Shown one piece after another: positions 8,051 to 10,250 of a DNA stretch of 64,000 bases. The notes under the pieces are model-generated. The model was not told where the DNA came from, made no database searches, and saw only the letters and a program-made list of their open reading frames with translations. Every line of letters begins with the position of its first letter. Positions within the stretch are counted from its first letter, which is position 1. The translations under genes and the position numbers were made by a program. The stretch lies in assembly GCA_003612485.1 (NCBI GenBank), contig RAZA01000001.1, positions 62,001 to 126,000 of the forward strand, written 5' to 3'. This stretch comes from a bacterium D16-50 (GTDB taxonomy: Bacteria; Bacillota; Clostridia; Lachnospirales; Lachnospiraceae).

Positions 8051-8515
8051 CTACATGCCAAGCAGAGCAAGCTTGCTCACGGACAGTTCCTGAACCACCA
8101 GCCCCTGCCGCTCCTTCTCCTCCGGCGGCAGAGCCGTCAGCTCTTCTATGGTGAGCTGCTTTGTCACATACCGTTTCCTTCCTTCCTCCCAAGAGCTGTC
8201 CCTGCGCCCTCCGGCGCCCCCCGGCACACGGCCCAGCAGCCCCTTTTTTTCCTCGATCACGCTGACCCTGATTCTGGCCTTCATCTGCCGATATATCTTT
8301 ACCAGAAAACTCTCCGGCCTAAGGTAATACAAGTGTGTCTCCAATGTATCCTCCAGATCCGCCTCCGGCAGCACATAGCGCTCCATCAGCATCCGGAGCT
8401 TGAACAGCAGCTCCTCCTCGTCCAGAAGCTCCCTGAAGGTATACTTGCTCCCCACGTAAATCCGGTTCGTGTCCTGCATGCTATATTTGAAATCTTCATA
8501 AATCGTCTGCCGCAT
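8051..8515 (-). CDS. Hypothetical protein paired with sigma-like gene
   Basis: 154 residues with no export signal or membrane segment, rich in charged helical sequence (FRELLDEEELLFKLRMLMERYVL), with a Gly/Arg-rich hinge near residue 100 and a C-terminal helix EELTALPPEEKERQGLVVQELSV. I do not recognise a family. It starts six bases after the sigma-70-like gene stops, so the two are almost certainly co-transcribed and may be partners, for example a sigma-like protein and its modulator. That link is inference from spacing only. Confidence 0.7.
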   Translation of the reverse strand: MRQTIYEDFKYSMQDTNRIYVGSKYTFRELLDEEELLFKLRMLMERYVLPEADLEDTLETHLYYLRPESFLVKIYRQMKARIRVSVIEEKKGLLGRVPGGAGGRRDSSWEEGRKRYVTKQLTIEELTALPPEEKERQGLVVQELSVSKLALLGM

Positions 8516-8521
8516 TCTTGT

Positions 8522-9283
8522 TCACCCGATATCCTCTATCTTGAATCCGCTCATCCTCATGGCATCCTCTATGGCTTTCAGCGGCATCCCCGTCTCCTGC
8601 GCCAGCTCCTCGGGAGTCACCTTCCTGCGCAGCTGCTCCGCAAGCTCTCTGGCCTTGTCCGCCACCTGATTCACCTTGTCCGCCGCCCTCTTATCCGCCC
8701 GATGGTTCGCGGCGCATTCTTCTATGTGCCGTTCCATGGCATCCATCACCAGTCTCACAAGGGCGCCCTGCACCTGCTCAGGGCCTCCCACGGCGCCGGA
8801 TTCCCTCATGGCTCCCAGCATCTCGATACCTGAGGCCAAAGCCACGTTTCCCTCCCCGATCAGATCCTCCAAAAGGACGCCCTGACCCGCGTACAGTTTT
8901 GCGATCTCAGCCACATTCCGCAGACAGCTTTCCGTCAGCTTTTCCTGCCCCAGCCTGTCCCCTGCCAGAGCCAGCGCCGCATAGGCCTCTGTCTCCCCCT
9001 GACTATAAACGGGAAGCTCCTCCAGCTCATCCAGATATTCCTGAAGATAATCTTTCTCTTCATCCGTCAGAAATGCATCCGGATCCCCCTGCTCCCCGAT
9101 GCTGATCTTGTGCTTTTTGAGATAGTCGAATACCATGTCCAGCTGTTGATCCCCCAGAGCCAGAGGGGCAAACTCCTCCCGCACCTGCTCCTGACTGATG
9201 CAGTTTCCCTGCTCTCTGGCAACCCGCCGCACCCGCTCCAAAATCCGGGCAAATTCAAGCTCCTTAGAAGAATTACCGCTCAT
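8522..9283 (-). CDS. Sigma-70-like protein with regions 1.1, 2 and 3 but no region 4
   Basis: 253 residues. Residues about 8-55 resemble sigma-70 region 1.1 (ISQEQVREEFAPLAL then LDMVFDYLKKHKISI). Residues about 115-150 resemble region 2 (LTESCLRNVAEIAKLYAG then LLEDLIGEGNVALASGIEML, the core-binding helix). The C-terminus matches region 3 (VNQVADKARELAEQL and VTPEELAQETGMPLKAIEDAM). No helix-turn-helix of region 4 follows, and the aromatic promoter-melting residues of region 2.3 are poorly kept. It may bind core RNA polymerase as a regulator or alternative sigma rather than act as a normal sigma. The family is known mainly as unnamed sigma-like proteins in Clostridia. Confidence 0.75.
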   Translation of the reverse strand: MSGNSSKELEFARILERVRRVAREQGNCISQEQVREEFAPLALGDQQLDMVFDYLKKHKISIGEQGDPDAFLTDEEKDYLQEYLDELEELPVYSQGETEAYAALALAGDRLGQEKLTESCLRNVAEIAKLYAGQGVLLEDLIGEGNVALASGIEMLGAMRESGAVGGPEQVQGALVRLVMDAMERHIEECAANHRADKRAADKVNQVADKARELAEQLRRKVTPEELAQETGMPLKAIEDAMRMSGFKIEDIG

Positions 9284-9380: not shown

Positions 9381-10250
9381 CTATTTGATATGGGTATGCG
9401 TAAAAAGGTGATTCTGGCAGTATTCATGGTTCCCGCTGCACTTAGAACAGAACCTGAACTCCAAAGACGGGTCATCCTCCTCCGTCTGCCCGCAGATAGC
9501 ACACTTATGTCTGGTTCCTCTGGTATTGCGCTTGATATCCTGCTTGAACTCCACTCTCCGTTTGATCTGCTTGGGCGACATATGGATATGGCTCCGGGAA
9601 GTGAGGAAGAATATCACGAAATTCAGCAGGGAAGAAACGATGGCTACCCTTCCTACCGCAGTCGCCTCCCATATAAAATCATACAGCAGCATCACGCCGT
9701 ACAGAACTCCCATCCACTTCACCTTCACCGGAATCAGGAACATCAACAGCACCTGCACCTCCGGGAATGTGGCCGCGAACGCCAGAAAGATGGACATATT
9801 GATGTAGTAGGTGCTGAAAAACAATGATGACATGTTAAATATCACGGACGCATAGGCCGGATCCATGTCCCATCCTGCCGAAGCATACTGGATCAGCATC
9901 CACACAAAGCTTCCAACGACGGTAAACAGCATTCCCGAAAACAGATATACATTATAACGGTAGGTTCCCCATGTGCGCTCCAGCGTAGTGCCTATGTTAT
10001 AATAAAAAAGCAGCATGATGCACACAAAGAAAATACCCATAGACCCTCCCAGCGAAGAGGGCGGAATCAGTATCCATGTGACCAGTCTCCACACCTCCCC
10101 GTGGAGAATTGCATAAGGGTTCAGTGTAAGGTACTGAAGAAAGCCGATATTGACCGCCTCGATGATATAGCCTACCGCATAACAGAGCAGCAGCATCACC
10201 GATATGTTCTTTATAGCATACTTGCCAAATTTTTTTTCAAATCTACTCAT
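9381..10250 (-). CDS. Rhomboid-like integral membrane protein with C-terminal Cys/His cluster
   Basis: 289 residues with about six membrane segments. The order and loops (WRLVTWILIPPSS after the first helix, YYNIGTTLERTWGTYRYNVYL after the second) look like the rhomboid / Derlin fold. I see no GxSG serine or paired histidine, so it is probably an inactive rhomboid-type scaffold. The cytosolic tail carries a metal-binding-like cluster: CAICG, FCSKC, then HEYC and HLFTHTH. It is divergent from the activase gene across a 505-base gap. Confidence 0.7.
   Translation of the reverse strand: MSRFEKKFGKYAIKNISVMLLLCYAVGYIIEAVNIGFLQYLTLNPYAILHGEVWRLVTWILIPPSSLGGSMGIFFVCIMLLFYYNIGTTLERTWGTYRYNVYLFSGMLFTVVGSFVWMLIQYASAGWDMDPAYASVIFNMSSLFFSTYYINMSIFLAFAATFPEVQVLLMFLIPVKVKWMGVLYGVMLLYDFIWEATAVGRVAIVSSLLNFVIFFLTSRSHIHMSPKQIKRRVEFKQDIKRNTRGTRHKCAICGQTEEDDPSLEFRFCSKCSGNHEYCQNHLFTHTHIK

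Follow-up and report, generated by a model that had tools for sequence, protein, structure and literature searches.

A SigA-related protein of Lachnospiraceae with polymerase-facing regions kept and most DNA-contact residues replaced: a candidate DNA-blind sigma paralogue

What might a bacterium do with a protein that is built like a primary sigma factor, ends before region 4 and has most of its DNA-contact residues replaced? The question is posed by a locus in a stretch of 64,000 nucleotides (hereafter, the window), which forms part of a 4.96-Mb draft genome of the Lachnospiraceae. Here, four genes on the minus strand read, in order, membrane protein, SIG, PAR and peptidase. SIG (positions 8522..9283) encodes a SigA-related protein of 253 aa that comprises regions 1.1, 1.2, 2.1-2.2 and 3.1, and PAR (8051..8515) encodes a protein of 154 aa that looks like a divergent middle subdomain of an FAD-binding domain (PCMH, xanthine dehydrogenase type). 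The initial annotation had pointed to a partner gene six bases away, and the open reading frames at 8522-9283 and 8051-8515, both on the minus strand with PAR downstream, show exactly this spacing. It had offered three readings of the sigma-like protein, namely an anti-sigma mimic, a regulator of core RNA polymerase, or one half of a split sigma factor whose partner replaces region 4. In our analysis, the first two come out as the best readings of SIG.

The two genes are flanked by a membrane protein of 289 aa upstream (9381..10250, minus strand), which is rhomboid-like by eye, and by a peptidase downstream (7905-4921, minus strand), M16-type by eye. The membrane protein ends in a zinc-ribbon-like C-terminal tail, HKCAICG...FCSKC, and gave nothing over cut-off in a Pfam search. 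Relatives of the locus were named from a PAR search and belong to Acetatifactor and other Lachnospiraceae. All 80 loci picked in this way carry both genes in the order SIG then PAR, at most 235 bp apart in 77, and a relative of the membrane protein is present in 78. We treat this protein as a neighbour by position and, at most, as a candidate part of a SIG system.

At three loci, the gap between SIG and PAR is larger, ranging from 950 to 1735 bases (L095, 2642-4378; L099, 4266-6001; L094, 4999-5950). The genomes of L095 and L099 have two more ORFs (369-385 and ∼162 aa, as seen at L023, L027 and L040), which are alike in both.

Which parts of a sigma factor does SIG contain? For the window SIG, the only Pfam or NCBIfam model over its cut-off is Pfam region 3 (Sigma70_r3, 8e-7). 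Sigma70_r2 (0.0024, covering no more than the model's first half) and Sigma70_r1_1 (0.023) remain under cut-off, and the NCBIfam sigma models, the best of them at 2.6e-18, are all far under theirs. A SigA chain from the PDB matches SIG residues 22-245 (4e-13). Among 28 diverse SIG relatives, Pfam at E values up to 0.1 recovered regions 2 and 3 in 26 members each, and region 1.1 in 24. The region 1.1-like domain (approximately residues 9-80; 9044..9259, minus strand), visible to both hhalign and Pfam, is confirmed at the level of profiles: alignment of the SIG family with the SigA N-terminus by hhalign gave a probability of 98.3 and a score of 78.1 over 68 columns, as compared to scores of no more than 16.2 for 100 column-shuffled profiles.

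Region 4 was sought with a profile of our own, which detects 29/29 SigA proteins and gave at most 4.3 bits across 143 SIG ORFs; 137 of these ORFs stop <20 residues past column 500 of region 3.1. The Pfam region-4 model did match two of the 28 diverse members, L223 with 26.9 bits (above cut-off; residues 221-251) and L213 with 17.8 bits (below cut-off; residues 212-242), and in both the region 3 model scores better on the same residues. The original description of region 1.1-, 2- and 3-like segments without region 4 is thus borne out by Pfam, the PDB SigA match, hhalign and the region-4 profile alike.

When 46 SIG and 24 SigA rows are placed in one tree, the two groups are split by a single branch with a length of 1.78 and an SH-aLRT of 100, a support that is weaker than it appears, given long branches and lost columns. 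Read with this caution, the tree does not call for many independent truncations. Within the SIG family, the mean share of the majority residue is 0.72 in regions 2.1-2.2, 0.65 in region 3.1, 0.60 in regions 1.1 and 1.2, and 0.55 in regions 2.3-3.0, such that regions 2.1-2.2 represent the best-conserved part of the protein.

For a view at the level of single residues, 143 distinct SIG ORFs (mostly from the window's genus) were aligned with 29 SigA-length proteins, with positions given in E. coli numbering; the SigA side of this alignment counts 30 rows, the SigA of the window's own genome being entered twice. In region 2.2, SIG keeps D403 (141/143), E407 (142/143) and N409 (143/143), which we take to be contacts to core RNA polymerase. 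Three other residues, presumably further core contacts, have changed: L402 is E in 133/143, Q406 is G in 124/143 (Q remains in 17), and M413 has given way to A, T or S in 116/143. In the window, the region 2.2 motif GQGVLLEDLIGEGNV spans protein residues 133-147 (8843..8887, minus strand) and marks a putative contact to the beta-prime clamp helices.

A different picture emerges on the DNA side. According to PMC4496690, residues Y425, T429, Y430, W433 and W434 act in DNA melting. In region 2.3 of SIG, Y425 is retained in 0/143 ORFs, F427 in 1/143, Y430 in 4/143 (with F in 25 and W in 3), W433 in 1/143 (K or R in 118) and W434 in 0/143 (M or L in 106). A second set of residues, comprising R436, Q437, T440, R441, R451, H455 and E458, reads the -10 and extended -10 elements, as stated in PMC2613000. 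Those in region 2.4 are likewise mostly replaced, with R436 found in 8/143, Q437 in 3/143 (D in 105), T440 in 0/143 (E in 130) and R441 in 9/143, the window SIG being among the latter. R451 is K or R in 86/143; in region 3.0, H455 is H in 4/143 and K or R in 110, and at E458 an acidic residue stands in 91/143 (E 19, D 72). In region 1.2, R99 is kept in 6/143 and Y101 in 138/143.

Charge and aromatic content differ as well. Over the stretch 423-458, the mean net charge is -4.9 in the SIG family (-2 in the window SIG) versus +4.0 in SigA, and the number of aromatic residues is 0.9 versus 5.0. The net charge of the whole protein averages -25 in the family and is -20 in the window SIG. With the -10 and melting residues and R99 replaced in nearly all ORFs, and with the stretch turned from basic to acidic, a role for SIG as a sigma factor, whole or split, is unlikely.

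The structure model of SIG, built from 71 sequences (pLDDT 93.9, pTM 0.74), features one 51-residue helix at model residues 167-217 (protein residues 168-218; 8630..8782, minus strand), at the place where SigA has separate 2.3-2.4 and 3.0 helices. The best 50 structural matches listed for the SIG model were all sigma subunits. Regions 1.2-2 align to sigma-S (6kj6_F) with an rmsd of 3.0 over 107 residues and a Z of 12.5; extending the comparison to regions 1.2-3.1 brings the rmsd to 10-11 A, for example with 8x6f_E (Z 14.2, 162 residues). In the model, each half fits a sigma factor on its own and the relative arrangement of the halves differs. Foldseek gave a best E value of 2e-8 with TM-scores of 0.25-0.39. 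For mostly helical models such as these, a Z below ∼13 is not strong alone, and the kinship of SIG with sigma factors is to be taken mainly from the sequence match.

If SIG lacks region 4, could PAR supply it? The PAR model (pLDDT 85.4, pTM 0.76) points elsewhere. Of 935 chains aligned with it, 92 reach Z 2, and the best 50 listed are all xanthine-dehydrogenase-type enzymes, matched in the middle part of their FAD-binding domain; the top match has a Z of 12.0 and an rmsd of 2.9 over 115 of the 154 residues. PAR covers only residues 56-176 of the 285-residue 1t3q_C, and the other subdomains of the FAD subunit are absent. With Foldseek alone, the FAD-domain matches reached an E value of 0.0018 at best. 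Profile comparison by hhalign, using 119 PAR sequences and 20 FAD-binding proteins of Lachnospiraceae, yielded a collinear match of 113 columns with a probability of 63.5, a P of 7e-5 and a score of 36.7, as compared to at most 23.6 in 150 column shuffles, 15.7 with reversed profiles and 17.0 with sigma profiles. With seven of the FAD proteins, the match covered 99 columns and its score of 20.8 was within the shuffle range, and a 75-row alignment of PAR from the genus gave no significant match to FAD domains in hhalign (≤25 columns, probabilities of 5.6 and 0.5).

In the collinear match, the FAD motif TIGGN aligns with TLETH in PAR. At its two glycines, 119 PAR sequences show E in 110 and G in 1 for the first position, and T or S in 105 and G in 0 for the second. 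E59 is kept in 110/119 and H61 in 106/119, and the motif site is therefore conserved for something other than the FAD motif. Taking profile and model together, we describe PAR as a diverged part of an FAD-binding domain, of xanthine dehydrogenase type, in which the FAD motif is altered. A search for the FAD_binding_5 family gave nothing in the genome that holds the window and matches in 45/120 Lachnospiraceae genomes. Searches of Pfam, NCBIfam, PHROGs and PDB sequences for a family of PAR produced no convincing candidate; up to 15 of 75 members weakly match unrelated families (CyRPA, Npun_R1517, TypA). When the PAR and SIG profiles were compared with each other, they proved unrelated.

These data bear directly on the possibility, raised in the initial annotation, that the pair is a split sigma factor, with SIG contributing region 2 and PAR taking over the missing region 4 function. 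The genes are indeed adjacent and region 4 is missing. Against this, SIG has lost its -10 and melting residues too, PAR folds like an FAD subdomain, and the six syntenic genomes described below carry SIG but no PAR. The split-sigma reading is already contradicted on these three counts, and we regard it as highly improbable.

SIG is found in 55/61 genomes of the genus sample (rows at SigA level were dropped, and G022 holds a fragment only) and PAR in 54/61. These counts, along with the gene order shared by 80/80 loci, mean that the SIG-PAR locus is no assembly accident. Beyond the genus, the score of our wide SIG profile (A5) cannot by itself split SIG from SigA, and the length of the open frame is needed as well. 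Counted as open frames <340 aa among the matches listed, SIG is present in at least 81/220 Lachnospiraceae genomes. This is a count by frame length: longer-framed proteins in G308 and G311 are also SIG, and those of G410 (358 aa) and G398 (374 aa) were left out. Outside the family, the matches listed for the 295 genomes of the phylum sample include no frame <358 aa, with 15 of these genomes having a second or third match beyond those listed; among the matches listed for the order sample (213 such genomes), no frame is shorter than 334 aa (G244, with the match near a contig end).

This distribution speaks to whether SIG has a present function at all. One could suppose that it is a decaying SigA copy under weak constraint and with no present function, and the mean protein distance of SIG over 69 loci, at 0.38, might be quoted in favor, though the neighbors are alike in this respect (0.35-0.39). 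The supposition is scarcely credible when set against a frame that stays open in so many genomes of the family, 30 invariant and 57 nearly invariant positions among 71 SIG sequences, and one common pattern of kept and lost residues.

As for PAR, it was detected in 28/220 genomes of the family sample and in 0/213 genomes of the order sample outside Lachnospiraceae. The independent occurrence of the two genes, raised at the outset as a possible objection to a joint role, turned out to hold in one direction only. PAR nearly always comes with SIG, in 27 of its 28 genomes and with the genes adjacent in each, whereas SIG often stands without a detected PAR, as in 31 of 58 family genomes with SIG at E 1e-30, where a very divergent PAR could escape. 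Clearer cases are six syntenic loci (L225-L229 and L231) in which SIG is followed by the peptidase with at most ∼233 bases between them, too short for PAR; L230, where the contig ends, is outside this tally.

The one PAR without a SIG match is that of G427 (L232, G427:C43; 69% complete), which has an FtsY-like ORF between the membrane protein and PAR. This PAR lacks the TLETH motif.

The same counts allow us to weigh the possibility that the two proteins work only as a joint, obligate complex, for instance as a scaffold or sensor in its own right, the sigma-like shape being merely inherited. The identical order at all PAR-selected loci and the adjacency in 27 of 28 PAR genomes of the family sample would agree with it. 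The six syntenic loci without room for PAR and the many SIG genomes in which PAR is undetected do not, and neither do protein distances over 69 loci: the correlation between SIG and PAR (r 0.50) is no better than that between SIG and the M16 peptidase (0.60) or PAR and the membrane neighbor (0.65), which leaves no excess as a sign of coevolution. We consider an obligate complex quite unlikely. PAR is not required by SIG, since lineages without PAR keep SIG and the distances show no excess correlation.

Genome contexts vary between branches of the SIG family, the window's branch having the order membrane protein, SIG, peptidase. An ORF of 401-463 aa lies upstream of SIG at five loci (L206, L208-L210, L215), and one of 1219-1268 aa, PurL by eye, downstream of SIG at three (L213, L217, L223). 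These contexts give no functional hint. At L220, an ECF sigma factor-like ORF (186 aa) immediately follows SIG.

An origin from phages or plasmids was considered and dismissed, with PAR showing no match in viral contigs or plasmids. SIG matched 16 phage records, all at <60% identity, and among the eight listed one is annotated at the SIG match (RpoS). A record labelled 'Bacteriophage sp.' (L305; MT837372.1) carries an unannotated SIG-like ORF of 269 aa at 527-1336; its flanking ORFs, by eye iron alcohol dehydrogenase, MutY and NrdD, suggest that it is probably a fragment of a bacterial chromosome. An anti-phage system was likewise set aside, SIG giving just a weak match to the MzaA sigma domain (E 1e-4).

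Against this background of observed kinship with SigA, an observed pattern of kept and lost residues, and conservation across the family, we propose that SIG is a DNA-blind sigma paralogue which, bound to core RNA polymerase, competes with sigma or takes its place, a reading to which we assign a probability of about 0.5. As a long-standing paralogue of the primary sigma factor, SIG would have retained the polymerase-facing regions 1.1, 2.1-2.2 and 3.1, while nearly all DNA reading would have been lost with R99 of region 1.2, the aromatic residues of region 2.3, the residues of region 2.4, region 4 and, judging by length, the 3.2 finger. Most likely, SIG docks on the core through the beta-prime clamp helices and places its 1.1 domain inside the DNA channel or close by; in sigma factors, region 1.1 sits in the polymerase channel, as described in PMC2613000. 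Bound in this manner, SIG could keep polymerase DNA-free or compete with sigma factors for the core, serving at the sigma site as a competitor, a storage form or a recycling factor that has no promoter access and would not be expected to direct initiation. PAR, which accompanies SIG in part of the family, may tune this activity. Occupancy of the sigma site without access to promoters would match the observed pattern, in which polymerase-side parts are kept, most DNA-side parts have been replaced and the charge is reversed.

Several points caution against this proposal. The main warning against core binding comes from the changes at the other residues of region 2.2: with the L402, Q406 and M413 positions altered, SIG may have little or no affinity left for the core. 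D, E and N might have been kept for structural reasons, and to an anti-sigma factor the surface of SIG would look nearly the same. As to DNA blindness, the R451, H455 and E458 positions appear to keep their character in part. Finally, the structural agreement of the whole model with sigma factors is poor.

The shared surface brings up the main alternative, that SIG does not act on the core and works by mimicry, similar to PhyR: its sigma-2-like surface would engage an anti-sigma factor, or some other regulator that binds sigma, and thereby free the real sigma. Lost DNA contacts together with a kept sigma-2 surface are what such a mimic needs, and a sigma-like domain in an anti-sigma antagonist has precedent in PhyR (PMC5830050 and PMC4814048). 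Moreover, one of the 28 diverse members (L207) very weakly matches the Pfam model of the PhyR sigma-like domain (E 0.09). However, Pfam finds no receiver or other switch domain on SIG; PAR has no match to anti-sigma families and a different fold; and SIG retains region 1.1, the channel domain of sigma. We know of no anti-sigma factor that targets region 1.1. Altogether, we think of mimicry as a somewhat unlikely reading.

Returning to the proposed binding of SIG to core polymerase, a possible context is provided by the delta subunit. Its family (HARE-HTH) was matched in 4/220 genomes of the Lachnospiraceae (frame lengths of 80, 284, 685 and 499 aa), with the B. subtilis and L. lactis controls both matching. 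According to PMC10141391, the delta domain resembles sigma region 1.1, and PMC7749165 implicates delta, or HARE-HTH, in polymerase recycling. The near absence of delta in Lachnospiraceae makes a delta-like role for SIG attractive, as a correlation across one family. A bolder version, which we hold to be unlikely, is that Lachnospiraceae, apparently without delta, use the sigma-derived SIG to plug or recycle the core without reading DNA. SIG would then be an accessory polymerase subunit that evolved as a primary sigma factor shed its DNA recognition, joined in one branch by PAR as a modulator derived from a flavoprotein.

If SIG does bind the core, a large family of gut commensals would regulate its whole transcription machinery through a protein for which the literature searched holds no description, a silence that is weak in view of the combined-term queries used. 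SIG would then also be a natural separation-of-function protein for studying the exchange between sigma and core, and would illustrate a route from sigma factor to RNA polymerase subunit.

How does the locus compare with known systems? To SigA/RpoD (regions 1.1-4), SIG is homologous over approximately residues 22-245, with region 1.1 recognized by profile; unlike SigA, it has most DNA residues of regions 2.3 and 2.4 replaced, has no region 4, ends after region 3.1 and is acidic where SigA is basic. The SigO-RsoA system of Bacillus subtilis also involves two genes, between which, according to PMC10141391, sigma regions are shared out. By contrast, PAR has no sigma part, SIG is without the -10 residues, and SIG and PAR are not always together. 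The delta subunit is acidic, as is SIG. In addition, its domain bears the resemblance to region 1.1 noted in PMC10141391, but SIG has no HARE-HTH match and carries sigma regions 1.2-3.1 too. With the FAD-binding PCMH domain (xanthine dehydrogenase or CO dehydrogenase medium chain), PAR has in common the fold of the middle subdomain and the 113-column collinear match, and differs in that it consists of this subdomain alone, with TLETH for TIGGN.

A PhyR-type mimic is a sigma-like domain that has lost its DNA contacts, a feature that is present in SIG. The sigma part of PhyR is ECF-type, however, whereas SIG is SigA-type and has region 1.1. PhyR, from the general stress response of Alphaproteobacteria, places its sigma-like part in an anti-sigma antagonist and, according to PMC5830050, has a response-regulator domain. 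SIG, by comparison, is without a receiver. To our knowledge, no DNA-blind sigma derivative has been known that stems from a primary sigma factor and keeps the channel domain. Sigma-derived proteins without DNA recognition are thus familiar from PhyR, and what is new here is the derivation from the primary sigma factor.
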